A program made the translations under genes and the position numbers. The notes under the pieces were generated by a model, which was not told where the DNA came from, ran no database searches, and saw only the letters and a list, made by a program, of their open reading frames with translations. From the NCBI GenBank assembly GCA_034620365.1, contig JAQGEQ010000116.1, positions 342,661 to 406,660 of the forward strand: 64,000 nucleotides of DNA, read 5' to 3'. Of the stretch, positions 15,401-64,000 are shown in pieces (the stretch's first letter is position 1; each line of letters begins with the position of its first letter). The DNA is from Pegea sp. RAD2-039. Lineage: Eukaryota > Chordata > Thaliacea > Salpida > Salpidae.

Positions 15401-17060
15401 GCCACTTTTGTGGCAACTAATCGATCTTTATTAGAAGAAGCGATTCTTTGAAAGACGCGAAGTGGTTGCCATGGCAATTTCTCCATCTTAATCCAGAAAT
15501 TATTTTTGTACTTTTTTGGAGTTTTTCCAATTTTGTGATAAACTTAGATTTTTTAAAGTTTTAAACAAAAAAAAAAGAATTTGTTGAAAGTTTTAAATTT
15601 TTTTTTAAATATTTTTTGTCAATGTTTTTTTACTTAAAATTTTTTAAGTTAAAATTCCAATTTGACAAAACCACAAAATATTTAGTTTTAATTTTCATTG
15701 AATTGATTCTTAAAAAGTACTTCATGTCAATTTGAGATTTCTAAATTTTTTATCTTTAAACGATTTTATTTGTTAATAACTTCAATAAGAAAAAAAATAT
15801 TTTATCTAAAAAACAATTTTACACAAACTATCTGGCAGTAAAAAAAAAGATTTAAAATTTACTTAAAAGAAACCTTGAAATATGAGCCACAAAACCACAA
15901 GCAAGGGACAATTTAGAAGCAAGTTAAAGGCAGTATTGAAAGTGTTGAGAAAATAATTAGATTAACTTAAGCCGTTGAGTTCAAACTTTGATTGTAAAAA
16001 CTTCACCATCAGCAACACCAAGCCAGTGACTGAAACCTAATAAATTCACTTTCGGTTCTAGGAAATCAACGCGTTGTATCCACTGTGTCCTCGCCTTCCG
16101 GACCAGTTGACCCATACGCGTTATTTGGACCGACCAGTGCTCGTCTAAGCAACCCTGGTAGTGGACAGATACAGCTGTGGCAGTTTTTATTGGAGCTTTT
16201 AAGTGATCCTTCAAACGCTTGTTGTATCACGTGGGAAGGAACAAATGGAGAATTCAAGATGGTTGACCCTGACGACGTTGCTAGGCGATGGGGAGAGAGA
16301 AAGAGTAAACCAAACATGAATTACGACAAATTAAGTCGAGCGCTTCGGTAATTTGCAATTGTTAGTTTTATATAATTCTAAAAACTTTGAAAAAAAAAAT
16401 AATTTCTTTAGATTTTTTGTTAAAATTTGTTTCAAAAATTTTATTTTTTTTTGGAAATTAGAATTTCTTGAAAAAGCCATTTTTGTAAATTAGATTAGAA
16501 GACTATCATTTGAAAAATAAAAATTATTGAATTTACTGAAGTTAATAAACTAAAAAATATAAATATAGAATAAGTAATTAACGAAACAAAATTTAAATAA
16601 TTTTTTCAAAACATCTAATTTAAATTTAATCTAAAAATAAAACTTTTTTTTCATCAGATACTACTACGACAAGAACATCATGACGAAAGTTCATGGTAAG
16701 CGATATGCTTACAAATTCGACTTTCAAGGGCTTGCTGCATCGTTACAACCTCAACCAGAACAAACAGCTTATACATTTGGGGCTGATTATAAACATGGTA
16801 TTTATAGACCTGACTTACACTTCAGCCCCCATCCACCTTATGGGCCAATACGTCATACGTCTCCTGGATATCATATGGGTCATCAAAAGCACCCCAGTGC
16901 GTTTGTGACGTCATCAACACGGTCGCCTTCGTATTCAGTTCAACAAACAGCTGCTGCTGCAGCTCAATATGCTTGGAGACCCGATTTGGGGGCATATTCT
17001 GGGGTCCCAGCCCTTCCAGCTTCTAATCAAACCCTTCCGGCGACTTCATTTTATAATTAG
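12483..17060 (+). CDS. ERG: ERG/FLI-type ETS transcription factor
   Basis: Five coding exons: 12483-13326, 13699-13899, 15091-15312, 16062-16347 and 16658-17060. They total 1956 nt (651 aa) with agreeing phases. ETS factors bind GGAA/T core DNA. Exon 1 is a long, Ser/Asn/Pro-rich, probably disordered N-terminus ending NKRVIVPA, exactly the ERG lead-in to the Pointed domain. Exon 2 is the PNT/SAM domain ([18 protein letters not shown]). Exon 4 opens with [20 protein letters not shown] and the first ETS helices ([11 protein letters not shown]). The recognition helix spans the exon 4/5 junction ([15 protein letters not shown]), followed by [13 protein letters not shown]. The PNT, ETS and VIVPA signatures place it in the ERG/FLI1/FEV group; I cannot separate ERG from FLI1. 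The frame is open upstream of 12483 without an ATG; ATG 12534 is an alternative start. Any 5' UTR exon is unseen. Confidence 0.97.
14527..14990. repeat. 31-34 bp degenerate tandem repeat in ETS intron 2
   Basis: About 14 copies of a unit built from GAAATATTCTAAAAAAATTT then TTGGAAACATA, drifting into GAAATATTGT variants. It lies between the PNT exon and the exon starting at 15091. The core TTTTTGGAAACA recurs in each unit. No coding potential. Confidence 0.85.
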
Positions 17061-19478
17061 TAAAGTCTCACGTGGATTTCTTGTGTTTGAGGCGCACTTT
17101 TTTTGCACATTTTGAACTTCTAGGCACTGTTACCCTTTGGAAGACGTGTGCCTCATAATCTGCGGTTCATTTGTGACATCATCGACGCTATTGTGCGATG
17201 TTTGTGTGATTATTATTCAGAAATAGTTTTGTGTTTGTTTATAAATGTATTTCAGCGCTGTTTAGGTGCTGGAAAATCTGTCCTTTTTCAACTTTGGATT
17301 TGTAGCTTGGAAACTTCACTAAATTTGAAACTATTTTTTAAGGTGCTTCCATCTTTTCGATAAAATCGAATTCCAACAAAACTAAAACTTTTAATCCAAA
17401 GCTTTTTTAAACTCTCTTGTTTCTTATTTTAAACAAAAAAGTGTTTTTTGAACGTTTCAATGCCAAACATTTAGATTGTTATTTGAAGACTTTGATAAAT
17501 TTATTTATGGATTTATTTTCAAACTTGTAAACTTCAGAAAACTTCTCTGTTCTTCTTCATGAGGTACTTTTAAGTAAACAGAGTTGTAAGCGCGTGTCTT
17601 TCTGACGTTGGCAGAACATTTGTTGAATAAAAATAATTTTAATTTTAACATCGACGATTATTCAGAATTTAGCAAGATGAAAAATATTTTAAGTTTGAGG
17701 TTTTTTCAAAGATTCATTTCTAAACCAAAATTAGTTTCTAATTTACAGATATTTCAATTTCTAGCTGAAGTTGATAAAGTAGATTTTTACTACTACCACT
17801 ACTAGGGTAGCTACTAGAGGCAGTAATCTTTTATAAGCATCTTCAACAAGCAAGTATTATATTTTTACAAATCAAGGTGCTACATACTTTTTTAATTTAA
17901 ACAAATTGATATTTAGAAACAATTTAAATGGACACCCGATTATTTGAAGTTTCTAGTTGTTCATGTAATCAGCTGTTTTACTTCTGGTTAAGAATTTATT
18001 AAAATAACCAAAGTGGCTTTCTGTTAAATTGGATTGAAATCAGGCTGTTTAAGCTACAAATACAAGTTTTTATTCAAAAGCAGTTGACAGATTTTATTAT
18101 TAAATCGTTAAGACTTGCTTGCCTTCACTAACTTGTATCTTAAGATGTATGTTTTTAATATTAATTTATTTACTCGCTTGGTAACTCACTACAATATTTA
18201 ATTTATAGTAGCCATGTTTGAAATCAATTTAGCATCTTGACTTACAAAAACTCCTCGGCGATAACATCAATCAAAAAAACTTGTGTTTGGTGGTCTAAGG
18301 TGTTTATAAGCGAGTTTCTAGTAACTGCTTTGATCGAATATTTTGTAGGAAACTGAGTAATAAGAAGCCAGATAATCTCTTTTCAATTTCAGAAGATGAC
18401 TTGAATCAAAGTCTACGCCGGAAATGAGTTTAAACACTCAAAAAAAATGAAATTTGTTAAAAGTATCTATAATTGAATTGAAAATATAATTCAGATATTT
18501 TATATGTTTCATGAATAAAAACACTTTCAATAGAATTGAAATTTTCTAATAATTTATTTCTAGTTTCAAGATAACTTTAAATTTCATTATTCAAAAGAAT
18601 ATTTGTTTTTTGTAGAGATTTTTACTAAATTTCAAAAAATAAAAATTAAATAACAAAATATTAATTAAATTCTATCAGCAAATCTACTAGAAAACCTAAA
18701 TCTAATAAAGTCCAAATTGGACTTTGACCTAGAAAGCTCCTCATCCAATAAAAACAAACTGCTGGCAGATCTTAAAATAAAATTCTGTAGTTTTTGAACC
18801 CAAGGAAGCTTTTTTAAACCGATTTCTGCCAAGAGTTCTGTTTACTCGTGATTTTACTTTATTTATTACTCTTGTTGTGATATTACTGAATTTGTTGCTA
18901 GTTGAAAATTGAAACTATCAAAACTGTTTCTACTTTATAAATGTTTCTATTATTTAAAACAAAAGGTTTTGATTTCTTTTTTTTGTATAAAGTATTTTAG
19001 AATATTATTCTAATAACATCTGAAACACAAAATTGAACAAATTCTGGAAAATATGAAAACTGCTGGTAACAGTAAAAAGAAAAACAATGTGGGAGTTATT
19101 AGAATTTTAGTTTAAATGTTTGATAGTTTAATCCAAAATGTAAAATATATAAAAAGATTAAACTATTAAGATAAATTAAACAAAGAATTTTCTTTTCAAA
19201 TAAACTTAAAAGTTTAATTAAAAAACAAAAAGAACAAAACCAACTTTAACAAATCTCATAACAACTTACAAGAAAAAACAACAAAGAAAAAGTTTCCTTA
19301 AAAACACTTCCGGTTCGATGACGTCATAGAAATGCCATTTACGTCAATTGTACTCTGTACATGTCAAACACGTGATGTGATGACGCGTCTACTGAAGGTA
19401 GGCATGTGAGGGAGTTAAAAATAAGAACAAGAAATTGAAAAAGTCTGTAGGATTCCTTTAAATCTCTCTACTCCAGTT
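17061..19478. other. ETS 3' flank and spacer
   Basis: Probably includes the ETS 3' UTR, since the first ~500 bp are less AT-rich. I recognise no gene. A few TGACGTCA-like words occur at the right end (19319, and TGATGACGCG at 19378). Confidence 0.4.
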
Positions 19479-19690
19479 GTCTGCGGAGTAGAGAGCGCCA
19501 TGGATATCTTCCCAGTTGCTAGTATTGATGTTGAGCGATTTCATATCGCGCTTGTATCTTTAAAACAGGAACAGCTGATGTTGCGTTTAGATAGCTCCTC
19601 GTATATCAGATGTTAACGTGTCTGATCCAGCAAAACCTGTACTTGATGCTAAGTTGTTGTAGTGAAGTCAGTGCTTTGTAGGTTTGCATG
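19479..19690 (-). mobile_element. LINE reverse-transcriptase fragment (short, decayed)
   Basis: About 200 bp matching the LINE remnant at 37868-38100 base for base over long stretches (TGTCTGCGGAGTAGAGAGCG, then TATTGATGTTGAGCGATTTC and CAGCTGATGTTGCGTTTA) with internal deletions. In the longer copy the minus strand encodes the end of a non-LTR retrotransposon ORF2. It sits directly upstream of the truncated WDR43 copy. Confidence 0.8.
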
Positions 19691-19934
19691 CATCTGATGA
19701 TTTTTAAAAGTTCTTGTTCACTTCAAAACAAAATATCTAATCTAGTAATTTGTTTCTCAATTTTTAAGTTTAGGAAATTCATTTTCAGTATTAGAATCGA
19801 ACATATAGTAACTCCATCCATGAAAGTTATTAAAGAACTATTTTTATAGACAAATGTGATCAGTTTAAATCCTGTAGTCTTTGAAAGAAGTTGATGTATG
19901 AAAGATTTTAATAAATCTGCAAAATCCTTTTAAG

Positions 19935-21002
19935 ACGAAACTCTACAAAAGTGATCTGCGTTGTTGATGAGGAAGCTGACGTCATCAAAATCGTCGCCGC
20001 GCGCTTCGATCAAGATAACAAGATACAGATTGTCTACGGAAGCGAGTTGAGATATGGTTTTGATCACGTGGTTAGTTGCGGAATATGCAAATTAGCCGCA
20101 AGTGTTAATCTTGTTGTGATTAGGATCTGAGTCTTCATCCAGATCCGGAGGTTTGTGTGATCCGACAGAATCCTTTGAAGATGAAGATCGTTCAGGAAAC
20201 AGATAATGATAAAGTGAGGAGTCCACGCCAACAATTGAGGTGGTAATCGATGTTGTTGTAGATTCGACGACCAGTAACTACTGGCAACGTGAAGTCGGTT
20301 GTACCTGGCCAAACAAATCATTCAGTTTCGATGACCAAGAAAAGAAGAGTCGAGAATAATCCTGAAATTGTGAGTTGTGTCTTCATCTTTAAAAAGATCT
20401 TTAACTAATCCTTTGATGCAGATGTCGATGGAAGAGAAGTTGGCTTCGATTAGTGTCGAGAAGAAAGAAGATCCTCAGATAAAAGCTGACTCTTTAGCAA
20501 TCCTTCTCTCACAGGGATTACAGAGCAAAGATTCTGGGATCTTGAACGTCAGTTTTGAGACTCGATATTCAAACTTTCAAATCGATTTCGTTTACAGCAA
20601 GTCCTTCAACACGGGAACCTTGATCTGATTGAAAAGACTGTCGCCCAGTTGAAGATACCTTCCATAATACCTCTAATTGAAGTCCTGTCTGAAAGGATTC
20701 AAGTTGGTCCTGACAAGTAAGTCTTCATCTTGTGATGTCATCACAACTTCTCGACACTTAATCTTTGACAGAGCGCTGATATTTGTGAAATGGTTACGAA
20801 GTCACCTGACGTATCACGCTGCTTTCTTGATGGCTGTAAGTTCACAAATAAATCTTCAATCAAATTCTGATTCCTATTTCATCTGTAGCATCCTGATATC
20901 GGCTCCATTTTATCTGATCTCTTTCAATTTATGACTGTCAGAACAAGTTCTCACTACCAACTATCTCGTCTCGAAGATACCTTCCATAATACCTCTAATT
21001 GA
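19935..21002 (+). CDS. WDR43: WDR43/Utp5-like C-terminal half, 5'-truncated gene copy
   Basis: Seven exons with GT-AG borders and one continuous frame: 19935-20070, 20124-20213, 20262-20369, 20422-20547, 20598-20716, 20772-20835 and 20889-21002 (about 251 codons). WDR43 (yeast Utp5) is part of the t-UTP/SSU processome that acts on 18S pre-rRNA. The order of segments matches the family after its WD40 propeller: a KIVAARFDQDNKIQIVYGS block, a VVPGQTNH block, a MEEKLASI...DSLAILLSQGLQ block, and the Utp12 domain with IPSIIPLIEVLSERIQ and FVKWLRSHLTYHAAFL. The WD40 half is missing, a LINE scrap lies just upstream, and no start ATG is evident. The C-terminus ends early, inside a repeated segment. 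It is either the 3' half of a gene whose 5' part lies far upstream, or a partial duplicate. Retained introns rule out an mRNA-derived copy. Confidence 0.75.
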
Positions 21003-21031
21003 AGAGGATTCAAGTCGGTCGCGACAAGATA
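20976..21031 (+). repeat. Partial tandem duplication of WDR43 exon 5
   Basis: The words GAAGATACCTTCCATAATAC and CTCTAATTGAAG...AGGATTCAAGT, which belong to exon 5 (20652-20705), recur here with an 11-bp internal deletion. The copy falls at the end of the last exon, where it supplies the premature stop (TGA at 21000). Confidence 0.85.
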
Positions 21032-24000
21032 AAAAAATTAGAAAGTATCTTTTTAATCTTTTTGAACTTTAATTTTCTTCAAAAATTTCGGTTATAGTAA
21101 AATTTTTGAAATATATTCATTTCTTTATTTTCATCTTTTTCAAAAATAAAACGTTTTTAAAGTTTGAATTATTACCAATCTATAATTAGATTATAGACAG
21201 TTTTCACTAACTAATTATTACTAATAGATAATGCCGTGTGCAGCTTTAAAGTTTTAGAAAGTTGATTAATAACTAAGTAATAAAATTTGTAATTAATTTT
21301 CTTATTTCTTTGTAAGTTACAAAATATTCAAAAAAATTTTTCAGAAGTTTTTCTCTAATAAAAATAATTATCAGATTTTGATAAAAAAAATTGTAATAAA
21401 TAAATATTTTATTATTATTTATGCTTGTTTATGTTTATTGTAAAATTAAAAAACTAAATTATAGGAAAATATGTTTGGAAAATAACTTTGAAGATAATTG
21501 TTAAAAACATGTTTTTAAAATTATTATCTTTTATGTTTTGAAATTGACAACAAATTTTGAAATAAATTGGAACAAAATTTTCAGTTTAATTTGACTATAG
21601 TTGAAAATTTTAAATAAAATTGTTTAGTTTGATAAATTTCAAGTTAAATATAAAAGTTAGATTATCAAAAATTAATAACAGATTTTATTGTAAAAATCTA
21701 TTATTTCTAATTATTCAAAAAGTGTTTTGTTATTAAAACAAATTACTGTTTTAAATCAAACTGTTTATTAAAAAATTGAGTTTGTTTAAATCAATAAAAA
21801 AGTTTAATTATAATCTAAAAAAGTTTAATGAATTTACTGAAACAGATTTTTAAAAAATGAGAAAAATTTAGAAGCATTTTAAAGTAACAAACCAGAATAA
21901 TCTGCTAAAAATATTTTTAAACATTTTATTTAAAGTTTTGAGATTAAGTAATTCTTGATTGAAAAGTTTGTCTTTTAAACAAATTGAACAAAAATAAAAC
22001 GAACATTCAAGAGTTCTATCAGCACCTTTTGATTACTTATCAAAAACATTAGATTGTTGTAATCTTTTATAAGATCAATTTGATAAAACTGTTTAATTGA
22101 ATTATTTATCTAATGATATTTTAGAAAGTTTTGATTTTTGGCAAAATATTCCCAATTAAAAAATGTTTTTCAACAAATTGTTTTTTTTCTGAAAAAATAT
22201 TTGGAAACATGACTATAAATATTTTTGTAAAAATTTACAAAACAAAAGTAATGTCTTTGAAAAAAAAACTTTCTTTTATAATTACTTTGAAGAAATATCA
22301 AAATATTTTATACTAAATATTAACTGTCATTTACTAAAAAAACATTTTTGAAAATTCATCAAATATAGAAAAGTTTGAAAATCGATTATATAGTTGATAA
22401 TTTGTTTATACTTCAAAATGTCGAAAAAAAATTAATAAAATTTAATTGAAAATCTTGATTTTTTGCTTTTCAATTCAAACTGATTATAAAATTTGTTCTG
22501 ATAAATTATATGATTAAAAATTCTTAGAAATAAATTTATTAATTTGAAAATATAAAATTTTGATATATGTTTTTGTTGTAAAGTTAGTTTTGACTAAAAA
22601 AAAGTTTTGCTTAAGATGAAAATTAGGATTTTTAGCTGTAAATTATTTGTAATATTATTTTATAAAAGTAATATAAAATTATACATTACATATATTGTAA
22701 CTTGTATTATAAATTACTTGTAATTTAGTTAAATAGCTAAAACGGAAATTTCAAACTTTAAAAATTAAATTTGTCAAATATGAAGTTCTATAAATTATTT
22801 ATTTAGTAAAATTATTTTAAGATTATTTTTTTAGAATTTAAATTAGTAAAGTATGAATATATATCGTTGTTTATCTAAAAACAACAATTTTAATAAAAGA
22901 AACAAGAATATTTGTAACCATAAGTAGTAAACAATATTTTGTAAGATTTGTAATATCAATTAGTAAATAACAATTATTACGAATATTATTTCAAATACTT
23001 TCAAATCAGAAATTTAATTAAACAACAATTAACATGAGTTTGGCCCACACAGAAAAACAACTTAAAAAATCGTACCAAAAAACCATATATCTTCATTTAA
23101 CTAAAAATATTTTAATTGATTATCAAATTATTTTGAAATTAAAACAAAACCAAAAAGTTCAAAGCAGTTATTTTTGTAGTTTAAAAACATTTTTTTTATT
23201 AAAAATATTTCGTTCTGTTTTGGTCCAATCACAGCAAATAAAAACTATTTTGAAAATGTTTCAAACTTTCATTTATTCCCAGAATACCACCTAACAGTTG
23301 AAAAATTATTTTCAATTCAAATATTTTAAATAAAAAAAAGATAAACTTTATGTTTAAATAATTTTAACATTGTAGCAGACAAATTATAAAAATTTTACTA
23401 TTTAGAAATTATTAAAAACATTTTTATTAAAAATTAATTTAAACTTTTAATAAAACTGTAAAGTTTTTAAGAAAACTTTGAATTTTATTAACAAATATAA
23501 GGTTAGTGTTTATTTAAAACTTTTAAATTGATTATCATAAATGAACGATTTATAAGTAGACATGATGGCGTCATATACAACTAGAGGATTGTTAGTAAAA
23601 CTGGTTTACGTGTAGCAATGTGATCATCAAACAATCATCATCAATTCATTTCATTTCTGATGACGTTTCGTTTGTGTGTTATTGAAAGCAAATGAAACAA
23701 TCAAGTTTTTTAGCAATACAAATCTATTTTTTGTAATTATTGAATAAGACAAGTTTTTATTGACTTGCATTGTTGGTTGAATTTTAAAAATATTTTGTAA
23801 ACCAAAGTTTTAGGTAAGTCACCAAACCCAATTAATTGGTAATTACAAAATATTTGGAAAATTTACATTTGGTTTTATAAATTATGAAATTTAATTAAAA
23901 GTCGAAGACAGAAAAGTTGTAGCTAATAGTTAAAACAACAGATTCTGTTACATCTTACTTAAAAGTTTTTTTAAAGTTCTTTTAATGTCAAATAAATGAC

Positions 24001-26412
24001 GTATCAGAAGATGATATGACAAATATAAGATTATTACTCATATTTCTACAGGTAAACATGTTGTTTAGAAAATACAAAAATAATTCTATCTTTCATAGAA
24101 AAAGGTTTTTATAAATTGAAGCCATCTAAAATCTCATTATTCTTTGTTTATCAGCAACATAGAAAGTAACATCACTAATTTGTTTCATTCAGAAAATGCA
24201 AATTAGTTGACATTATTTCACTATATTTAGTCAAACTAGTGAATGTAGTTTGATTACGATATAAGATAAACTTAAAGTTTCATCAATCATGTTGGTATTA
24301 GCTCAGATGTTTGAGATAATTTGTAAATTAAATACTAGTTAGTAATTGATGTTGAACCACAGAATTTTTAAACTTCGAATTTTATGTCTTTTAGACTTGG
24401 TTACAATATACACAAAAGTTGGCAGATATAAAAAAAGAATTTGATTTGTTTATTTATTAAATAGTTAATGAATATAAAATATTATTTCTTTTTATTGGAT
24501 TTAATCAATATTCTTCACTTAGTACTTATTTAATAAGTTTATAAAATCGACAAAAATGCTTGGTGTTGAAATTGATAAATAAATATTATTAAATAGTTTT
24601 TATAAACATAAAATGCATAATTAGTGATTTTTTATGTATATTATTTAAAAGTAAATATACAGTGGTAATAAACTTATCTAAAATATTATAAATAGTTTAT
24701 CTTATTTTCAGACTTTTTAGGAAGATAACTTTTCAACTTTCATCTTTTATAATGAAACTTTTGAACTTTATTAAAAAGAAGTAATTAGATTTTTTTAGAA
24801 TTTTTTAACTGAAATATAAATTTTTCAGAGCAAATCAAGCGTAAACTGGTCTCTAATATTTACTAGAAATTTACTATATAAAGAAACGTATTTAAGATAT
24901 TATCGTCATGATGACATTAAATAGTTTTTCACAGAAATTTTTTTATTCATAAGTGTAGTTATGATGCTTTTAATGTTGTTTCTTTGTCTTTAATACTGAC
25001 TAAATTTTTTGTGTGATTAATTAAAAGTTCATTTATTAATTTAATTGATTCAGTATTAAACTAAAATTATGTCAGTTAATATAATATTTAGTCTGAATAA
25101 ATACATCCATTCCTTTTCATTTATTGATTTGTAAATTTATTTTTAGTAACGTTTTTAACTAAAGTTACAGATACAGCTTCAAGTTTATATTTTTAAAAAT
25201 TCTAAACCTTTCGAAATTTTACTTTTCAAATGTTTTTAACTTTGCTTGAATCTTATCAAAACAAAATTTATGAATCATTTACTAGACTTGTTTATGTATA
25301 GGTGTAAGCTACTAGCTCAGTTTATTTTTGTATTTTAAATCGTTTAATTAACTTCATAATTTTTCTTTAGCTTCAGTATAAGACTTTTAAATATTTAATT
25401 TAAACTAAAATGATTTAAAGTTGAGTTTTTATAAAATTTAAATAACTGATTTTTTAAACCAAGTTTTTGTTATTTTTGAGATTTAGTATTTACAGGTCAG
25501 GCAAATATTTCAAACTTTTGTTTACAATCTTCAATTAATGTTGTTGTTTATAATAAAGAAAGTTTTTAGTTCCAAATAAGAATTATGTAGAAAATATTTG
25601 AACTATTTTTACTTTAATGATGAATTTTATCAGACTTTTCTATATTTATTATTTCTATTTAAATAGCTTAATATTTATCAATATTTTTGTTAAGTTCTAT
25701 TTTCAAACTTTATATATATCACTTTTAAAATTCATTAAATAACTTTTATGCAAGTTAAATCAAACATTACTTCAATTATTATGAAGAAATAGAATCTGAA
25801 TTTGATGTATTTATTTATTTATGAATATATTTTCATATATTTGAAAAAAACTTTATCTTTTATATTATTGTTTTTTTATATATTTTTTCTTTATAAAACT
25901 AAAAACAAATATAAATATAACTTTTATAAGCTATATAAGAAGTTCAATGTTATATCTAATCATATATTATCAACAATATCTTATAAGTTTTCAAAAATGC
26001 TTTACTGAAACCAATTGACAGTTCAGTTTATTTTTATACTTTTAAAAATAGTAGCATTTAAATATTCATTTAAATTTTCAAACTGTTTCAGAGACAGGAG
26101 ATGTATTTTTATGAGTCACTATATTTTGTTTTGTAGACAAGAACAATTTCAGTTTGTTTTTTTTTTAGTTTGTTGATTGTCGAGTAATCAGTTGTAGATT
26201 TTTGTTTTTTTGTTTGTTTGTTGGTTTAAAAGTTCTGAATATTTTTTTTCAAAACTTTTTATACTTAACCTTTTATAACTTTTAATTTTTAATAAATTAA
26301 AGTTTTTATAAACTAATATTTCAAATATTTTCACCACTTTAATCAACCAATTGTTATTTTTGACAAATTTTTAGACATTTTTAAGAACGTCATAAAATTG
26401 ATAAATTTAGAA
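21003..26412. other. AT-rich desert
   Basis: About 5.4 kb of strongly AT-biased DNA with no gene I can support. Short open frames (22131-22316, 23034-23294, 25802-26008) are Lys/Phe/Ile/Asn-rich noise. TGACGTCA is essentially missing; only near-matches occur (23570, 23660, 23998). The last few hundred bases should contain the AKT promoter and 5' UTR. Confidence 0.5.
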
Positions 26413-32136
<5,724 letters not shown>

Positions 32137-33831
32137 CGTCATCAAAAGATGTATCACTGACGTCATCAAAAGATGTATCATTGACGTCATCAGCACTAAT
32201 AGTGACAATTTACTTTTGTAAGTCGCGACGCAGACAGTCTTGATGATGTCATGACCGGCTGTGTAGTAACCAGGATTTTGGCAAGCAGAGGACGCCATTA
32301 AAGCGACGATGACGTCATCGGAGCTTTGCAACTTTTGTCTAATATTTCATCTTCTATTTTTCTTTTATTTTCCTCCTGACCTTTCGTTTTTGCACCGGAT
32401 TTTGATTTTCTTTAAACATGACGTCATCAACGCCATCATCGGTACACTTTTATCTCTGCACATCATCTAATCTTGATCTTGGGAATTCCCCCAAGCTGAA
32501 ATGTAACCGGTCGATTTTGGTATCGAGCAAAAAACAAGTTTTTTATGTTTTGTTTTTCTTTGTATGTGTAATAAAACGCTAAAATTGAAATTGTCAAGAA
32601 GATTTAATGGAAGATTTACACTTCATTGTGTCCTTGTGAATAGCGCCCTCTAGTGAGAATTTTCAGGACTTCACTTGATAAACTTCACTGTCCATTCTGT
32701 TATCTGTTGATCTTGTTTAGTCGGATGCACAAACGGATATTTTCTAATAATTTTCAGGTTGAAGATGTTTTTTGTGTTTTGAAATATCTTCACGAACTGT
32801 TGATGTTGATTGAGAGAGTCTTAGAAGTCACTCTTTCTGTAATCAGAAGGATTGATTAGTTGTCAGGAAGTTAAAGATCTCTCAGTTTAATGACTCCCTG
32901 ATCCATATTTGACATCATTAATCTTCTACTTTTAAATAATTAGATGCAACAAAACCGTATTTACTTTTCAAACTTTCTGTTTTTATTAAAAAATTGTCGT
33001 AAAAATCAGCTGATGTTAAAAATATGACACATCGACAGTAGACCATCGATTATTCGAGTCGTTTATATACAAAAAACAAATCAAGGGTCTGACTATCAAG
33101 TCGAAAGCCGGGAAGCTGAAAGTGATTCATTGTTGACGATTACTCGAGTTGTTTGTGATTTTCATGAGGGTAGCAACAAAAGGTTCCGTTCGAATTGAGA
33201 ACTGACATCACTGAGTCTTCTTCTTTATTCTTTTATCTGTAATGTCAGATTTGCTTGGCTCATCAAAGGTCTTGTAGATGATTCTTCATCTAACTGAGTA
33301 TACCAGCTGCTTCAACCAATATTCCGATATCTGTTACCTACATCACGTTTGTTGAACGTCTTTAGCGATATCAACTGCTATTAACCTTTTTTTAAAATCC
33401 TTTTTCTGTAAATCTATAAAGCAAGAAATATTATCAAGGGTTATCATTAGTTTAAATCTATAATTAGTATACTTTTTGTGTTCGTGAGATAGTAGTTACT
33501 AAAATACATAAAATTAATTGATAAATTCAAAATCTGTATTGAATATTTTAAGGCATGATATCTGGATATAATTTGATTATTTTGATTATTTATTATCAAA
33601 TTTTTGACTTGTATAGATAACAGTTGAAATGTTTTTACTCAGAAATTGTTTTTTATAAAAAGCTCTTTTATAGAAAAAATTACAAAATGACAAAGTTAAA
33701 AAATCTGGTGATAGATGCCTTTAGATATCTTAAAAGCGAAGCAAGCTCTCTATTGGCCGCCTTTCACTCACTTATCTCGAGATCTTTGCCCCAGGACCCA
33801 AGGAAAGGACTTTCAAGCCCCATATGTGACA
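32137..33831. other. AKT 3' UTR and flank
   Basis: The first ~300 bp carry several TGACGTCATCA words, three of them in a row with AAAAGATGTATCA spacers (32134-32190), likely AKT 3' UTR. I recognise no gene further right. The open frame at 33624-33836 is unidentified and ends against the inverted repeat at 33832. Confidence 0.4.
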
Positions 33832-38668: not shown

Positions 38669-40885
38669 ATTTTGATGTTAAGTGGTTCATGGCCTTTTAT
38701 CTTACTATATGATAATAAATCGCTAAATAATTAAATTGGCAAATTAGTTATCAGATAAAAATATGTTTAAATAAATAAATTAAATATTGGTTATTAGATA
38801 ATGATAAAAATATGGGTATTAAGTTGTTTAAAATGAACTAAATAAAACATTTAATAATATTTTCACTGTTATAATAAACATATAATCATTTTTTGTTTTG
38901 ATATTTGTTTTATGGTTTCATAATTGTTTTTTAAACTTTATTTTACAATTTATTATATCTTTAATATCTTATATAATTAATCAATTATTTTGGGGCTTTT
39001 TAGAAAAAGTGAAAATTTTTCACAATTTATTTTTTTCGTCAAGCCGCAAGGTGATAGAAGAGAGACTTTGATTTCTACAAATAAACATTTTTTTTGTAAT
39101 TTGTTTCTTCAACTTGAATTTTTCTTTTTATTTCTCATAAGATCCGTTATTAACAGACTAAAAAATTGATTAAAATAAATCGATAACTTCTGAATTTGTT
39201 TTTTCTTACTAAATGTTGACAACTTTTCTAAAAGTTTATTTATTTAGTTTAAATGTAATCTTTATAAAAAATAAATTGGTTATTTAACTATATTTTTAAA
39301 TTTAATTATAAAATTATCAGTTGTTAAAATCACAACATTTAATTCATATTTTAATTTTAAATAATTCACTTTTAAAAACTCTAAATGCAGTTACACTAAA
39401 AAGCTCTTTGGAAATCAATTATTGTTTTCACAGTTTGATTTTTTTTCAAATTAATGATTTTTGAAGCTTTATCAAACTTTAAACACAAATTATTTTCAAC
39501 TTTAAAAACTTTGTTTACAAAACTTCAAATCTTCTCCTTGTAATTTTTAAATAAATTTCTTATTAAAGCTAAAACCAATTTTCAGTTTTTAACATTGCTT
39601 TTAATCAATTAAATTTTCTGTATAAATTTAAAAGTTTCATAAATTTACAGATTTGTTAACAGATTTACAAACATTGATTTTTATTATTTTGTCAATTAAA
39701 TTTATTCCATTACAAACAATTTATTTAAAAATCAGATATTTGTAAAAAAGCCATTTTATCCGTGTGATTAGTTTCATTTCAAAAACTAGTTTTATTTGAG
39801 AATATTAAAGTGCAAATGATATTCCCAAAAACCATTTTTGTGGTTTGACTTTGATATTCAAATTGAAATAATCAAAAAATTTAATTCACAAGGAACAAGT
39901 TTAAACCAGTTCGAAAGGCCGAATTGTCGTTGAAGTAGGTTTTTAAAAAGCACTTTGTACACACTACTGAAATAGTTGCAGAAACAATGTTGCTACAACA
40001 AAATCAATTGCCTTTTAAGTAATTGTTGGCTGATTAAGATAAAGTGTTGAATTTATAAAATTTTTATATCGACCTTATAAATTAGTTGTAATCTATCATT
40101 TGAATATCATTAATAATAAATACAAAGTTTTATATAAGACTAAATAGAAATTTGAAACTATAGTTTCTTACAAATTTAGCCGAAATTTTTAGTTTTAAAA
40201 GATACAATTTATTAATTTATAAAAATCAATCTTATTTTTTAAAATCAATAAATCAATAAAAGTTCTTTTTTAGATTAAAAAAAAATTATTTATTAAAACC
40301 TTTTATCAAATTAATAGATAATTTACAAAAACATTCGAAAGGAAAAATTTAGTTACAAAAATGTCATTGACACAATCTAGTAAAGATTTAATGAATGGAA
40401 GGCAACGCGAATAAACGCGAAAACGCGGTTTTTCCACAAAATCTTTTTTGTTTCATTTTTATGACTTCTTTTCAAATTTTAGAACTTCCGTAAAGTCAAC
40501 ACCGGTTTGATTACACCATTTAAATGCCTCTCTACTTACCACTAGTTGGCGGTATTTCACCACAATTCTCATAATTCTTCATTCACTTCACAATAAACCC
40601 AACGTGAACTTGTGACGTCATTGTAGCGATGTGAGTGACCTGGTTTTCAATTCTCTAGAGAAAGGGTTTTCTCTGTAAGCTTTCTATTATTCATTTTTAA
40701 TAACTTTCGCCTGCATCAAAATTTCTTTTTTTTTATTACAAATCGCTAATGACGTCATCAGCGCCAAATTTAACAAACAATGAAAAATGAAAACTCTACA
40801 AAAACATAAAATACTTTTTTTTTTAGAAAACAGTGACGTCATCACTAGCAGCATTGACGTCATCACTAGGAGATTGATTCAGTAT
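38669..40885. other. AT-rich intergenic spacer
   Basis: No gene recognised. From about 40.6 kb rightward the TGACGTCATCA word becomes frequent (40614, 40749, 40833, 40856), likely the ABCG 3' flank. Confidence 0.45.
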
Positions 40886-43880
40886 TTACTTAACAACAGG
40901 CTTATGAAGATAACGAAGGAAAATATAACCAAAAACTCTGAAGACAATCATTAAACTAAATAACATCAAAACTGAAAATGTAGCTGTAAGATCAGGAGCG
41001 CCGTTCTTCGCAATTATTTCTTCAGCAGGAATAAATCGCGTTTCGTTTGTAATCCTGGTGACGTCACAAGCAGCATATGAACTTAAAGTGGCGTTACAAC
41101 TGCAAACAAAACTAATGTCATTATCATATTAGTATGTGACGTCATCACTTACATTACGCGATCGTCACGATTAAATTCGAGAAGAACCAATAAGGAATAA
41201 GTATGTAGAAGCGGTGATAGTACCCGCGACCAAACCAACCAATCAGGAATGGCTTTGACATAGAAACCACCGAGAAGCATAAAAAATATCATCATCATCA
41301 CTGCCAACGTCATTCCTTGTTCCCAGTCCATAGTAACCGTTGACACAAAGATACCTGAGTGACGTCATCGTTGTTACTATGTTACGTCATCAACATGTGA
41401 CGTCATCAGCATGTGAAGTCATCAACATGTGACTTTATCACCATGTGACGTCATCAGTATGTGACGTCATCAACATGTGAAGTCATCAACATGTGACTTT
41501 ATCACCATGTGACGTCATCAGTATGTGACGTCATCAACATGTGAAGTCATCAACATGTGACTTTATCACCATGTGACGTCATCAGTATGTGACGTCATCA
41601 ACATGTGACGTCATCAACATGTGACGTCATCAACATGTGACGTCATCAACATGTGACGTCATCAACATGTGACATCATCACCATGTGACATCATCAACAT
41701 GTGACTTTATCAGCATGCGACGTCATCAACATTTTACGTCATCAACATGTGACGTCATCAACGTGACTTTATCAGCATGTGACGTCATCAACATATGACG
41801 TCATCAATATGTGACATCATCAACATATGACGTCATCAATATGTGACATCATCAACATGTGACGTCATAAGCGCGTGACATCATCAACTTACCTAACGAC
41901 TGAGATGTGATGGTGATGAGAACAATAACAAGCCAAGAACCAAAGAATGACGTCACAACCGCCATTCCATTCAAACCAGCCATGACGTAGAAGAGAATAA
42001 AAGAGATTGAAGGAAGAATTAGAGCAAGTGGAAGTTCACTTAAACATTTAGCAATATAATAAGCTGAAAGACGATACATCCCTCCCATACGTTCCTTGTT
42101 CACTACTTCGCGTTCTGCGGGAACTACAACAACGTCATCTAGTGTTCAATGACGTCATCGACACTTACAGACGATCAGAACTTCGAAAAGTGAATTGAAA
42201 GCGTAGTGAACCGCGAGATAGAAAAGAGCTGCGCAGATATCCATGATTCTCGATTCGGGGACAAACCCTCTTCCAGTACTTAACCAAATCAATCCACAAA
42301 TAAAAGCTATTCCAAAAGTCTTTACAATATTTAATCGCGACAAATACCGCCCTCTACCGACAAATATATACTCATGATGACGTCATAATAAATTGTGAAT
42401 GATGACGTCACCTGCCCTGTATGAAGCTGCGTCGAGTTAAAACTGAAACTTGGGCCAGAAAAGATGTCGGCCATTTTTTCCGTTCAACTTTTACCACTTG
42501 AGATGACATAGATGATGACGTCATCACATTACCGCCATTTGCTTCTTTTCGAATCACTACTTGAGGCTCATCTGTGTAGTAAACGATGACGTCATCAACA
42601 TCAGTAGTGACGTCATCACCTTTTGATGCGATTGGACATTCTGGATGATTGATTCGTCGCGCGTTTGAATGAGTCTGAAGTTTCCCATCGACATCTGATG
42701 ACACGATTCCCACTGATGACGTCATAGTTAGCATCTCGCGTTTCTAGCGTCACAAGTTTACATATAAAGTCTGCTGGATTGTAGTGACGACTCTCATTCA
42801 CAAAACCGATCTCCGAGAAATTATCGATGACGTCATTGGGACTTCCATAATACGCGATGTGACCCTCTTGAAGAAGAATCAAAGTATCGAATTTGAAGAA
42901 CACCTATCAAAGTGATGACGTCATCAGTGACGTGATCACTGATTTGACATCTATGACGTCATCAGTGACGTACTTGTGCTGAAGGCTGATGAATGGTCAG
43001 AATGAGAGTTTTGTGAAATTGAGAAACATATTTCTTTAAAGAACAAATTAAATCAAATGCTGTGTTGCTATCCAAGCCTGATGTTGGTTCCTATGACAAC
43101 GAGAACCTTTAGAGAAGCGATGACGTCATCGGCGATCGATTTACATCAAGTAGAAGAACAGAAGGATCTGTTAAAAGTTCATTCGCGATTGAAACGCGTT
43201 TCTTCTCTCCGCCGGATATTCCCCGAGTTAAAGCTCCTCCAATAACTTCAATGAAAGCGGAAATAAACGCGATCATGACGTCATACATCCGTACTTACTT
43301 GTCGTCGCGCATTTCCGTATATCTAAAGCGTTGATGATGTCATCAACGATTTGCATTTTGACGTCAAATGATTCTTCAAGGCGAAGCTCCGCGGCAAACT
43401 AGAAATAAATGACGTCATCAAGTACTACTCGACGGTGACGTCATCACCTTCAACGTTTGCTCCACAGTGAGATTTGGGAAGAAAATATCTTCTTGAGTGA
43501 CGTAACTGATTCGTCGTCGCAGCGTTTTGTTGATGACGTCACCATTCAATGTGACGTAACCATCGCTACTAGCAGCGTTTGCTCTTCCCGCCAAAATATT
43601 CAACAAACTCGTCTTTCCCGAACCTACAAGCGTCGATGACGTCATACTATCGATTAAAACGTCATCACCAACCGCTGGGACCCATTATAGCGACCATTTG
43701 CCCAGGAAACGCGCTGCCGCTGACGTCATCTAAAATTATTCGATTCTTAATTTGCATATTGATGGAAGTGAATCGAAAATCAACTCCACGCTCCAATGAT
43801 CGTCGTCGCGTGCTTACGTCACGAGGTGTCGTCTCTGATGCTGACGTCATCAACAGCTGATTATCATTTTGGTCATCCAT
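40886..43880 (-). CDS. ABCG: ABCG-family half-transporter
   Basis: Eleven exons: 43880-43673, 43623-43448, 43398-43299, 43245-43145, 43090-42974, 42903-42762, 42712-42412, 42353-42169, 42123-41893, 41354-41153 and 41099-40886. The sum is 1977 nt (658 aa, the usual half-transporter size). The ATPase domain comes first, as in ABCG: Walker A GPSGSGKT spans exons 1/2, the Q-loop is in [15 protein letters not shown], the signature is [13 protein letters not shown], Walker B is VLLLD|EPTSGLD, and the H-loop is [15 protein letters not shown] follows. The membrane domain has about six hydrophobic segments, with [16 protein letters not shown] and [15 protein letters not shown], the pre-TM block typical of ABCG. 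The last extracellular loop has two Cys. It probably works as a dimer exporting lipid or other hydrophobic substrates; the substrate cannot be told. Introns are mostly 45-55 bp and palindrome-rich. Exon 7 carries a disordered DDV/MTSS-rich linker. Confidence 0.95.
41360..41885. repeat. 16-bp CRE minisatellite in ABCG intron 9
   Basis: About 30 copies of ATGTGACGTCATCAAC, with variants GTGAAGTCATC, GTGACTTTATC and GTGACATCATC. Early units are grouped in a 64-bp higher-order block (CGTCAGT, CGTCAAC, AAGTCAAC, CTTTATCACC) repeated about three times. It fills the 538-bp intron between exons 9 and 10. Confidence 0.95.
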
Positions 43881-45401
43881 TATTCAAAAAATTTGCCACA
43901 AAATTAAACTGAAACGATGACGTCACTGCTATTAGACACAGCAAGTCAACGGCGTTTGTTCCGCTCTGGTGATTTCGAAGTCGATACGCGCGAGCAGTTC
44001 AACTTCAACTTTTTGCTTATATAACTCGAAACTTGGAATCTAACTCAATTGGTATCGAAAAAATACTGACGTCATCATAAACGCTGAAAAAGGTTCGATG
44101 ACGTCATCTGATAGTTTTCTAAATTTCACTGAAATTTTTTTAATCATGAAAAAAAGACTAAAAAAAAAACCGCGAAAAACGCCAGAAATTCGACTAAAAC
44201 TGCAAACGAAGTCGCGCGCTTGTATCGCGAATAAACGAAGAGTTTATGGAGTTAGATGTTTAATGGTTTAACCTTTAAGAAAAAGACAAAAAAAAAAGAT
44301 TTTGTAAATTTCAAGTTTGTTCTTTGTCATCACCTAGTGATCAGTCATTAACACGTGTCGTGACGTCATACGTTTATTTGTTTCATTCAAGTTGTTTAGA
44401 TGTAAACAAAACAGGATTTTATTGATCAAACTAACTTGCCATCGTAATAGATGACGTCATCGTGGCTTAAAGCGCTTTTTCTGAAACTTCAAAGAAAGAT
44501 TTGAAATTTTCTTTTAAATTGCTTAGATTAGCAGCTTTTCAATCAAAAGATTGATTAAAATGCTAAGGAGTAATGACGTCATCACTGCAGTCTGTTTATA
44601 TTTAAGTTGGTTTTTTTTTTTTCATCAAAAAAACCCCAAAAATTTTCGAATTTTCTAAAAATCGATAATTTTACTGCAAAATAGAAATCTTACAAATTTA
44701 CAGAGAAAAAATCAACTAAAAAAAAATTAATTAAAATAAAAGAAATTTTGATAAAAACAAAAATAAAAAACTTTCAATCAACTTTTCAACTTTGCAAAAA
44801 ATGTAAAAAAAAAATTTTTAGTTTGCATTAGCAAGAAATTTTTTTTTTTGAAATTAGGTCAAAATTTCCAATATTTTTAACTTTTTATTTTCTCTCAAAC
44901 GCCACCTAGCGTTGAGCATCGCGACTTGCAACATTTTTCCATAAAATTTTTTCTATAGTTTTTCTAATTCTTTAAAAAAATTGTCTTTTTACTGTCACTT
45001 TTACAAAAGAATTTGAAAAATTAGTTTAATAATTTTTGATTAAAATATTTATCTTTTATAAAAATTGTAATAAAAAAATAATAAATATTTTTACAAATCA
45101 AATATATAAACAAAAACATGGAAGATAAAAAAATCAACATATATCAATACATAAATAAATATACATAAATCTATTTATACAAATATTTAAAAAAATATGC
45201 ATAAAAAATTAAAGATATACAAAATCAACAATTTATATTGCAAAATACAATTTAAAATAATTGTAAAAATTAATTATTTCAGAAATTGGCTGCTAGTTAA
45301 AAAAGTTTTTCAATTTTTTTAGGTTTAAAATTGTAATAAGTTTAATTTTTATTAAGAAACATTTTCTGAACTTAAATAAGTTATTTATAAGTCGATCATA
45401 G
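43881..45401. other. ABCG 5' flank and spacer
   Basis: No gene seen. Contains several TGACGTCATC words (43917, 44067, 44097, 44359, 44452, 44574) within the first 700 bp upstream of the ABCG start, then AT-rich DNA without them. The former may include the ABCG promoter. Confidence 0.5.
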
Positions 45402-45485
45402 CCTTCGATAGCTCAGTTGGTAGAGCGGTGGACTGTAGCGTTCGTTGAAATCCATAGGTCGCTGGTTCGAATCCGGCTCGAAGGA
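45402..45485 (+). tRNA. tRNA-Tyr: tRNA-Tyr (anticodon GUA) with intron
   Basis: The acceptor stem CCTTCGA pairs with TCGAAGG, followed by discriminator A (45485). The A box is TAGCTCAGTTGG and the B box GGTTCGAATCC. The anticodon loop is C-T-GTA-G-A with anticodon 45435-45437. An 11-nt intron, CGTTCGTTGAA (45439-45449), sits at the canonical position one base 3' of the anticodon. The mature length is 73 nt. Introns are near-universal in eukaryotic tRNA-Tyr genes. It lies between ABCG and FAK. Confidence 0.97.
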
Positions 45486-45487
45486 TA

Positions 45488-45493
45488 TTTTTT
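45488..45493 (+). terminator. Pol III T-run terminator
   Basis: Six consecutive T residues, two bases after the tRNA-Tyr 3' end; the usual RNA polymerase III stop signal. Confidence 0.85.
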
Positions 45494-46733
45494 ATTTGCT
45501 TAAATAAACATTTTTCTAAATATATTTTTATCTTAATATAAACTTTTGAAATATTTTAAAATTTAAACAATTTAAGAATAACTTTTCAGTACTTTTTAAA
45601 ATAAAATTTTCTCTAAATTCTTTTAATAATTGAAATAGAAACTAAATTCTTAAAAAATTTTCAGGACAGCAAAGAATTAAAGCAAGATGTTTAAAAAGCT
45701 TCAAATTACAGAAATGCAAAATCTGTTTAGTATTTATTAAACATCTAAATTTTATTTCAAACCTTTTAAGAAAACAAAAAATAGGAAAAAAATCAATCAA
45801 TTAATCAAAAAAAATGTTTAAATAAACAGAATTTAATAAAATTATTATTTTAAAGCAATCTTCTTTTTCAATAAAACTCTGTAATTTAAACAAATAAGTT
45901 ATTTTACATCTGTCTTGCTTAAGTTGAATGTATAAACAGAACAAGTTGTCTATATTTCATCTTTTTTGTATGAATCTAAATATTATCAAAATGTGTATAA
46001 AGTTGATAAACTATTTGATAAAAGGTCGATGGCTTTCAATAAAAAGAAAAAAAGAAAATACTAAAACCACTTAAGACAAAATACTTATTTTCAAACAAAT
46101 AAAAAAGATAAATAAAAATTCATTGAGTTTAAATCATCTTTAATGATGACAAAAATTTTGAAATATCTTTAAAAAATTTATCAAAATTTTATTTGAAACA
46201 CTTTTTGAACATTTTAGTAATTTCACTTTTTCAGTCTCTGTACCGCCAACTTGCGGAAAACATAATTTTTAAATTTAAAACTAATTTTGTTTTATGAAAT
46301 ACAAATTTTTAAATTTTTTAATTTCAATGAAATAATTATTTGAATTTAAAATAAAAAGATTATTTAGTAAATGTTTTTAAAACCACTTTCTAGGAGATAA
46401 TTTAATCTAATTTTTTTTTGTTTTAATTTTAAACCCTGAAATTAATCAATCGAAAAAAATGACATTAAAAAAAATCCACAAAAATTTCTCTTAAAGTTTT
46501 TATTTTTTTTTTCTCAAAAACCTCAACAGATAATATAATAGTGATGACGTCACAGCGTGATGACGTCACAGCATGATGACGTCACACAGCGTGATGACGT
46601 GAGCGGTGAATAGTGTAGTGGTGTTGATGAAGTCATCAAGATTAGCAGCAATTAATTTTCTGGGTAAAAAATCGAAAGTACACAAAAAAAAGTTTCTGAA
46701 AGAAAACAGAAGTGAAAAGAAGCGATGACGTCA
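45494..46733. other. AT-rich spacer and FAK 3' flank
   Basis: Nothing coding. Four TGACGTCA words in close tandem (46542-46600, spacer CAGCGTGA or CAGCATGA) lie just downstream of the FAK stop, probably in its 3' UTR. Confidence 0.45.
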
Positions 46734-61729
<14,996 letters not shown>

Positions 61730-61808
61730 TTCTATGACGTCACAAACGCACGTGTAAGTCAAAGTTTTATTTTTAGATGAATAGAACTAATTTGCATAAG
61801 CTTTTTCT
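61730..61808 (-). other. Immediate 5' flank of FAK
   Basis: Contains one TGACGTCA at 61734-61741 next to CACGTG (61748-61753), so a CRE and an E-box lie within 25 bp of the start codon. The frame stays open upstream without an ATG, so an extra 5' exon cannot be excluded. Confidence 0.5.
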
Positions 61809-61809
61809 A

Positions 61810-62635
61810 ACAACACCTTCAAAACAGCTTAGCAACTAGCCTAGCAAAAAAGATAATTGCAAATAGAAAAATGAAAAACAACAACAACCTAACAAACTTA
61901 AAAACAAACCTAGCAACAAGCTAACAACAACCTAGCAACAAGCTAACAACAACCTAGCAACAAGCTAACAACAACCTAGCAACAAGCTAACAACAACCTA
62001 GCAACAAGCTAACAACAACCTAGCAACAAGCTAATAACAACCTAGCAACAAGCTAACAAGCCAAAAATAAGCGAACAACAAGCTAACAACAAGCCAAAAA
62101 CAAGCTAATAACAACCTAGCAACAAGCTAACAACAAGTTAGCAACAAGCTAACAACAAGCTAACAACAAGCCAAAAATAAGCGAACAACAAGCTAACAAC
62201 AAGCTAACAACAACCTAGCAACAAGCTAGCAACAAGCTAATAACAACCTAGCAACAAGCTAACAACAACCTAGCAACAAGCTAACAACAACCTAGCAACA
62301 AGCTAACAACAAGCCAAAAATAAGCTAACAACAAGCGAACAACAAGCTAACAACAACCTAGCAACAAGCTAGCAACAAGCTAATAACAACCTAGCAACAA
62401 GCTAACAACAAGCTAGCAACAAGCTAATAACAACCTAGCAACAAGCTAACAACAAGTTAGCAACAAGCTAACAACAAGCTAACAACAAGCCAAAAATAAG
62501 CTAACAACAAGCTAACAATAAGCTAACAACAAGCTAACAACAAGCGAACAACAAGCGAACAACAACCTAGCAACAAGCTAACAACAAGCCAAAAATAAGC
62601 TAACAACAAGCTAACAACAAGCGAACAATAACTTT
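61810..62635. repeat. Tandem array of CTAGCAACAAGCTAACAACA-type units upstream of FAK
   Basis: About 800 bp of 10- and 20-bp units mixing CTAGCAACAAG, CTAACAACAAG, CCAAAAATAAG and CGAACAACAAG, with longer blocks of ~100-180 bp repeated. It shares the TAGCAAC core with the FAK intron 5 array. Confidence 0.95.
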
Positions 62636-63320
62636 TTGTAACAGTAACTTCAATTCAAGTTGAATATTATTAAACTAAATTGACTGAATCATCGAAATAA
62701 CAAAAAAAAAAATTGTTATGACGTCATTATCATCAACAGAGGTGGTGAAACTATTTCCGCTATTTTTAAAATAAACATTTAAAATGAAGAAGTAATTACG
62801 TCACAATTGAAAATAGATGACGTCATCAGTTGATAAATTAGCTTACCATCGCCAGTTTGAAGTTTTTTGTTATAAATTGGACAAAAAATTAAAGAAAAAA
62901 TTGAAATATTTGAAATTCTGGATTCGATATTCATCATTATCTTCTAAAATTTCATTTAGATGTTTTTTTTTCAATATTTTCTGACTTAAAACTGAAGATT
63001 TTCTTAATTTCCAAATTAAATATTTTTAAAAATTATTGAAATTTTTTATCTACAAATTTCTTCAACTTATTTTAAATAAAAAATGTTTAAAATAAATCTG
63101 TCATTGTAAAAAGTTCAAATGAAAAACCTCAAAAAATTAAATATAAAAAATTAAAAATGAAACACTAAAGTACAAAGTAGCAAATATAACAATGTTTCTT
63201 TCCTAATAATTAATCGCTTTCAATTTTTTGTTCCGCCTCAGTGAACATCGCTTATTTTTGTCACGTGGTTTCAGGGAGATAACTTCTCATTAATTTTTGG
63301 CAATATTTACAAATATTTGA
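62636..63320. other. AT-rich spacer
   Basis: No gene seen. TGACGTCA at 62719 and 62818. No features otherwise. Confidence 0.45.
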
Positions 63321-63321
63321 A

Positions 63322-64000
63322 AAATAACGTCGCCACGTGACTAGATCTTCAAGCAAATGACGTCACCACGTGACTACATCTTCAAGCAAATGACGTCACC
63401 ACGTGACTACATCTTCAAGCAAATGACGTCACCACGTGACTAGATCTTCAAGCAAATGACGTCACCACGTGATTACGATTTTATGCAAATAACGTCGCCA
63501 CGTGACTACATCTTCAAACAAATGACGTCACCACGTGACTAGATCTTCAAGCAAATGACGTCACCACGTGACTAAATCTTCAAGCAAGTGACGTCACCAC
63601 GTGACTACATCTTCAAGCAAATAACGTCACCACGTGACTACATCTTCAAGCAAATGACGTCACCACGTGACTAAATCTTCAAGCAAATAACGTCACCACG
63701 TGACTAAATCTTCAAGCAAATAACGTCACCACGTGATTACGATTTTATGCAAATAACGTCGCCACGTGACTACATCTTCAAGTAAATAACGTCACCACGT
63801 GACTAAATCTTCAAGCAAATAACGTCACCACGTGATTACGATTTTATGCAAATGACGTCACCACGTGACTAAATCTTCAAGCAAATAACGTCACCACGTG
63901 ATTACGATTTTATGCAAATAACGTCGCCACGTGACTACATCTTCAAGCAAATGATGACGTCACTACGTGATTACGATTTTATGCAAATGACGTCACCACG
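63322..64000. repeat. 33-bp array combining CRE, E-box and octamer motifs (runs off the window)
   Basis: About 20 copies of CAAATGACGTCACCACGTGA then CTACATCTTCAAG. Each unit carries TGACGTCA (or TAACGTCA/TAACGTCG) four bases from the palindrome CACGTG. A second unit type has ATTACGATTTTATGCAAAT in place of CTACATCTTCAAG and so contains the octamer ATGCAAAT. The array is cut by the window end. Confidence 0.97.

Follow-up and report, generated by a model that had tools for sequence, protein, structure and literature searches.

The palindromic octamer TGACGTCA occurs 27,792 times in the 105.7-Mb genome (387 contigs) of the salp Pegea sp. RAD2-039, against 969 occurrences of the reversed word, which was used as the control for genome-wide word counts. 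The original prediction had named this count as its test, and the outcome lies far from expectation. Exons, introns and intergenic DNA all carry the word, in agreement with the genome-level process acting on DNA that had been proposed. Judging from ungapped alignment blocks and from the flanks, the sites arose in place and not through insertion. Because they coincide with CpG-rich gene domains, a mark or chromatin role is the one that we favor on sequence grounds, and our leading, if tentative, explanation is that TGACGTCA is a putative dimer site of bZIP proteins (CREB/ATF/AP-1) that has been multiplied in particular genes, where it may mark open, unmethylated whole-gene domains. Among the matches listed in the open-licence PMC literature, we found none that describes a hyperabundant TGACGTCA in any animal.

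Abundance of TGACGTCA in the window and in the genome

The window, i.e., the whole 64-kb stretch of DNA that was analyzed, holds 180 copies by word count, 20 before position 40,600 and 160 after it. A single copy lies in the first 10 kb and none between 20 and 28 kb, so the near-absence reported for the beginning of the window and for an internal desert is borne out. No 8-mer is commoner in the window than TGACGTCA, which is four times as frequent as the next palindrome, AAAATTTT (n = 44). Outside tandem arrays, 106 of the 160 copies after 40.6 kb remain, in 16.6 kb, where 0.17 would be expected from base composition and about 1.5 from a second-order model with the sites themselves included (both expectations are both-strand figures halved), and the high density claimed for the right third is thus real. 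In the same array-free part, GACGTC and TGACGT occur 222 and 238 times on both strands, and 212 of these occurrences lie within the full octamer, which gives the core a sharp edge. The proposed spacing of about 100 bp or less describes the densest block (40,613 to 44,574; mean of 83 bp, arrays counted in) but not the island as a whole, where the mean is 146 bp. The features of the window are as follows.

40613..63995, no strand: island saturated with TGACGTCA, 160 copies, 106 of them outside tandem arrays
4675..32426, no strand: 20 scattered or locally clustered copies, with clusters at 29,022-29,534 and 32,134-32,426
49503..50204, minus strand: open frame of 233 amino acids without Pfam match, 9 sites, MTSS and DDVI peptides
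52704..53474, minus strand: open frame of 256 amino acids without Pfam match, 14 sites
61031..61786, minus strand: open frame of 251 amino acids without Pfam match, 14 sites
55741..56103, plus strand: open frame that encodes an Ig I-set domain (E 2.2e-8), 4 sites
57847..58185, minus strand: open frame containing the FERM exon of a homologue of focal adhesion kinase (4ny0 as best PDB match, E 2.3e-11), 1 site
41379..41888, plus strand: 16-bp tandem array on ATGTGACGTCATCAAC, core columns 0.918 against 0.903 for the rest (indel-aware alignment)
63322..64000, plus strand: 33-bp tandem array with TGACGTCA (11), TAACGTCA (6) or TAACGTCG (4) in the core slot
61322..61631, minus strand: 75-bp array of about four copies in a long open frame, DDVI and NDVI peptide repeats

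Between positions 33,001 and 39,000 the window is richer in GC and CpG (CpG observed/expected ratio [o/e] of 0.85 to 1.24) and has no TGACGTCA; two open frames there lack a Pfam match, and the segment is possibly a mobile element. In a 14-bp tandem array at 29617-32053, CATCTTCTGATCTT is repeated about 174 times with 94% similarity between copies, and the consensus does not contain TGACGTCA.

Genome-wide, the 16-mer GTGATGACGTCATCAC was found 154 times and its reversal not once, which together with the overall excess of TGACGTCA argues against the duplication history of one locus, in line with the original prediction. Close triplets of the octamer numbered 1,836 against 0, tandem arrays included, and these supply a large share of the matches listed; an array of about 63-bp units with two TGACGTCA each (C1:5276652-5278221) alone accounts for a large share of them. 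In ten islands, picked together with their borders because they bear sites, 281 dispersed copies stand against 0.69 expected. The comparison with other 8-mer palindromes gave the same picture as in the window, since 281 of the 333 CG-centered palindromes of the islands are TGACGTCA (5,947 per Mb, against at most 275 per Mb for any other). The E-box-type palindrome TCACGTGA is enriched in the same islands (275 per Mb) and, genome-wide, occurs 4,614 times against 237 for its reversal (19-fold).

The word is not spread over the genome at large. Sampling blind to sites covered contig C1, where 13 of 19 ten-kb stretches placed regardless of sites were empty, five held one to three copies and one held seven; a 20th stretch (L009, 13 sites) had been put on an already known cluster and stands outside this unbiased sample. 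In the 18 non-island stretches, seven exact copies were found against 0.7 expected. DNA that adjoins a saturated gene can have none. CGCGCG occurs 50 times in the ten islands and not at all in the 18 non-island C1 stretches (both strands, arrays and sites masked). Telomeric repeats are TTAGGG, and homologues of a Pointed-domain protein and of a BTB protein were detected, with a weak formin match below the Pfam cut-off; together with the focal adhesion kinase and Ig-domain homologues they point to an animal genome. The assembly gave no match to COX1.

Gene-limited blocks and the formation of sites in place

Sites are gathered gene by gene. At one locus (L027), 39 sites lie within 1848-4500, the last near 4481, and none in 1-1800 or 4508-8000; at another (L025), 30 lie within 4083-6650 and one elsewhere in 8 kb; at a third (L026), 28 lie in the first 4,750 bp, followed by 3 kb with none. 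When seven introns of 50 to 60 bp, placed by eye from their GT-AG ends, are removed from the L027 gene, the predicted coding sequence is a single frame of 572 codons; its matches are F-box/LRR proteins (FBXL2 as the best, E 5e-21), and we take it to be FBXL4. Its introns hold 12 sites in 370 bp (32.4 per kb, or one per 31 bp), at least one in each of the seven and some at the donor site, and its coding sequence holds 17 in 1,719 bp (9.9 per kb), eight read as MTS and nine as DV, with the remaining frame, in which the word would create a stop, free of sites. A higher density in introns than in coding sequence is shown for this gene only, as the ten islands overall have 8.3 sites per kb in long frames and 4.9 per kb in the remainder. 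Another site-bearing frame (L004; 354 codons, five sites) resembles histidine protein methyltransferase 1 (E 2.8e-37 to 4rfq). This METTL18-like frame (L004:737-1798) also holds a 20-residue stretch as an exact tandem repeat.

The alignment to FBXL2 covers 12 of the 17 coding sites in the F-box gene, and by eye 11 of these fall in ungapped blocks and one beside a gap. The 281 dispersed sites prefer TGA 5' and TCA 3' of the core, giving the extended consensus TGATGACGTCATCA. These symmetric preferences, which an earlier proposal had put forward for checking, are independent on the two sides at three positions (141 against 140.9 expected, 87 against 86.0 and 104 against 108.4), and the full triplet occurs on both sides in 40 sites against 39.9 expected, consistent with the prediction that the copies lack shared long flanks. 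Independent, symmetric flanks are what a symmetric dimer site gives, while copies of a longer element would need to have decayed everywhere but in the core. It is on the ungapped blocks and on this independence that the origin in place rests. The flank signal ends about 7 bp from the core and no partner motif was found at a fixed distance, so a minigene with such a partner was rejected. Gaps of 8 to 15 bp between dispersed sites are scarce (2 against 16.5 simulated; 4 of 365 raw gaps are shorter than 16 bp), and no spacing peak or nucleosome-like spacing between sites was found.

Words that differ from TGACGTCA by one letter are also in excess in the islands (78 against 16 expected in 47 kb with 281 sites). 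TGACGTAA leads them (25 against 1.3), followed by ratio by CGACGTCA (6 against 0.7) and by the CpG transition TGACATCA (17 against 2.7), so that the most enriched change is at position 7/2 and then at position 1/8 and the CpG transition; changes of the end letters make up 12 of the 78. In the 18 stretches outside islands, TGACGTAA is no commoner than expected (3 against 3.0) and TGACATCA is in excess (16 against 6.6), and genome-wide TGACATCA numbers 11,070 against 2,673 reversed and TGACGTAA 5,160 against 2,795. We infer from this contrast that CpG decay may prevail outside the islands and variation limited by recognition inside them. Tandem arrays contain 93 exact copies and 29 one-off words, of which TGACATCA and TAACGTCA are the most frequent at seven each; these copies are not independent of one another. 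Active regeneration of sites within arrays was not supported, the core of the 16-bp array being kept at 0.918 against 0.903 in the spacer; in two short arrays (three and four copies) the core is fully kept.

CpG content and a putative bZIP site

In 1-kb bins with sites masked, CpG o/e climbs from 0.67 to 1.22 with site density, and it does so in the four GC classes that contain both kinds of bin. Islands have a CpG o/e of 1.13 both inside and outside long frames, against 0.78 and 0.69 elsewhere, and coding density was therefore rejected as the cause of the high CpG. With sites masked, island GC remains below 50% (0.41 within long frames and 0.35 beyond them), and 9 of 10 CpG contexts are commoner in islands than in other DNA of equal GC, the exception being ACGG. 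The steps coincide with the blocks described above, with a CpG o/e of 1.49 between flanks of 0.50 and 0.55 in L027, 1.22 between 0.82 and 0.54 in L025, and 0.99 against 0.26 in the site-free part of L026. The TpG+CpA ratio is nearly equal in site-free (1.12) and site-rich (1.07 to 1.14) bins, and six sites lie in the 5' flank of the F-box gene even though this flank is CpG poor (o/e of 0.49).

The genome contains 11 matches to the cytosine methylase family, seven of which span nearly the whole model in frames of 832 to 873 codons:

C57:818701-827300 (L029) and C32:24001-27300 (L030), with more on C249, C32, C52, C262 and C49: multicopy cytosine methylase genes in single long frames

The three copies that were read, which we take to be DNMT1-like, hold no TGACGTCA. 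A bacterial-type specific methylase is disfavored, as the three copies read look DNMT1-like, and the search of the cytosine methylase family found no motif-specific methylase. Two methylase copies lie inverted, 3.9 kb apart with 94 to 96% identity, and resemble retrocopies or a mobile unit.

The original prediction had recognized the CREB/ATF word, and the core together with its flanks agrees with this, as the consensus TGATGACGTCATCA contains the FOS matrix GATGACGTCATCA (MA1951.1, which stands with FOSL1::JUN, ATGACGTCAT, in a table of PMC9164029). Twelve bZIP_1 matches were found in the genome, and the loci around three of them hold 0, 0 and 2 sites. According to excerpts of PMC1796609, CREB binding can be inhibited when the CpG of the CRE is methylated, and CpG islands contain 62% of the canonical human CREs. 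Under the bZIP explanation, bZIP dimers would occupy the sites in the germ line, and dense occupancy would keep the gene open throughout and free of CpG methylation, with CpG being lost elsewhere in the genome. Such a state would reinforce itself, because the site includes a CpG whose methylation blocks binding by CREB; open genes would keep and gain sites, and sites would decay outside them. Their number may have been raised via weak selection for total occupancy or by conversion favoring the site-bearing allele.

Several observations argue for this explanation, namely, the gene-limited blocks with matching CpG o/e steps (L025, L026 and L027), the genome-wide excess and the rise of CpG o/e with site density, the graded symmetric flanks with independent sides and a FOS-like consensus, the near-misses led by TGACGTAA, the scarcity of 8-to-15-bp gaps, and the presence of the 12 bZIP_1 matches and of DNMT1-like proteins. 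The excerpted statements of PMC1796609 on CRE CpG methylation and on CREs in CpG islands point the same way. Others weaken it: one site per 31 bp in the F-box introns exceeds any known regulator need, bins with and without sites hardly differ in the TpG+CpA excess that deamination should leave, the CpG-poor F-box flank has sites and the fairly CpG-rich segment at 33 to 39 kb of the window has none, the core of the 16-bp array is kept no better than the spacer, the loci around three bZIP matches hold few sites or none, and the islands and borders were chosen for holding sites.

Competing explanations and known systems

In our ranking, open gene domains maintained by bZIP proteins come before a HIP-like repair bias, which in turn precedes self-protecting conversion. 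The second of these, which we regard as unlikely, is a ratchet in which sequence-directed repair or modification, acting in open, transcribed germline chromatin, would turn near-matches into useless TGACGTCA copies, with the patchiness showing where the system is active, and a comparable model has been proposed for HIP1 (excerpts of PMC4390886). It accommodates the origin of sites in place and their presence within coding sequence, and the threefold higher density in the F-box introns fits a pressure opposed by protein constraint. However, near-misses in arrays are not cleaned up (29 beside 93 exact copies, with the core conserved no better than the spacer), changes at position 7/2 lead here whereas those of HIP1 favor the end letters, the 16 one-off words expected by chance in 47 kb are too few as seeds for 281 sites, and the cytosine methylase family yielded no motif-specific member. 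The biased mutation or repair suggested originally is disfavored in its uniform form, as saturated genes adjoin site-free DNA and TGACGTAA, not the CpG transition, is the leading near-miss within islands.

Ranked below it and doubtful is a conversion drive, in which a bound site would shield its own DNA from meiotic breaks, the homologue without a site being cut and then repaired using the site-bearing copy, so that sites would spread in recombining open genes. In fission yeast, breaks form on both sides of the ATF-bound M26 site and leave about 70 bp around the word without visible breaks (excerpts of PMC9775316), and the raised GC of the islands would fit, as would the abundance of tandem repeats in several of them (repeat fractions: window, 0.166; L026, 0.344; L003, 0.249), as recombining DNA can have. 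Against it, other islands are repeat poor (L028, 0.015; L001, 0.019), a word that induces breaks should normally be lost by conversion, and, in the same excerpts, a plain CRE in ade6 was neither bound nor a hotspot. We would place lower again the notion of a self-promoting word, a meiosis-bound bZIP site that would shield itself and be copied onto the homologue by conversion, in introns first and in coding sequence where tolerated, until entire genes consist of it, as a drive-like element of 8 to 14 bp stabilized by keeping its host gene unmethylated.

Passive retention, by which CpG words merely survive in genes that are unmethylated, is improbable. It would explain the higher CpG o/e of the islands in 9 of 10 contexts and the rise of TCACGTGA (4,614 against 237), but it is strained by a single octamer at 5,947 per Mb, which it cannot create with the other CG-centered palindromes at no more than 275 per Mb. 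We find it very improbable that the word acts in RNA or protein, as a splicing signal or as MTSS and DDVI peptides; all seven F-box introns have it, some at the donor site, and open frames are peppered with these peptides, but introns, exons and intergenic DNA all carry it, and the 17 coding sites are split 8 to 9 over two readable frames into two unrelated peptides. A very small self-inserting mobile element, the tiny palindrome of the original prediction, is hardly credible: a short, palindromic, dispersed sequence in thousands of copies would suit it, but an insertion should add DNA and bring shared flanks or extended sequence, and 11 of 12 alignable coding sites lie in ungapped blocks, with no shared flanks and independent sides.

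Among known systems, HIP1 (GCGATCGC) and the alternative cyanobacterial HIPs are the nearest in kind, being 8-bp palindromes far above expectation inside and between genes. The comparison, drawn originally, holds for abundance and fails for patchiness (13 of 19 C1 stretches empty) and for the near-miss pattern. TGACGTCA belongs to an animal and is patchy gene by gene, and its one-off words are led by TGACGTAA, whereas those of HIP1 are biased to changes of the end letters (excerpts of PMC4390886). Nearest in biology are the mammalian CREs in CpG islands, which share the word, its enrichment in CpG-rich DNA and a genome with cytosine methylases (excerpts of PMC1796609). Vertebrate CREs lie near transcription starts, in the 150 bp before the start, whereas TGACGTCA fills whole genes, introns and coding sequence, at a GC far below 50%. 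M26 and the CRE-like hotspots of fission yeast resemble it in their word, ATGACGT, which is bound by the ATF/CREB pair Atf1-Pcr1 and acts in gene bodies (excerpts of PMC9775316). M26 hotspots have few sites and no saturation, unlike the TGACGTCA islands. In the 21U-RNA motif domains and PATC clusters of Caenorhabditis elegans, a short signal likewise recurs in thousands of copies that are gathered in domains or in germline genes. TGACGTCA differs from these in having no partner at a fixed distance, in occurring also in exons and in being palindromic.

If the sites are bound, such genes would be one long array of regulator sites and a natural test, at single bases, of occupancy against CpG methylation and against protein constraint. 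If they were spread by biased conversion or repair, this would be, to our knowledge, the smallest self-promoting sequence in an animal, and it would offer a way to study the origin of highly iterated palindromes, which for HIP1 itself rests on a model. A DNA word here visibly shapes protein, as TGACGTCA has written 17 places of one 572-codon gene.
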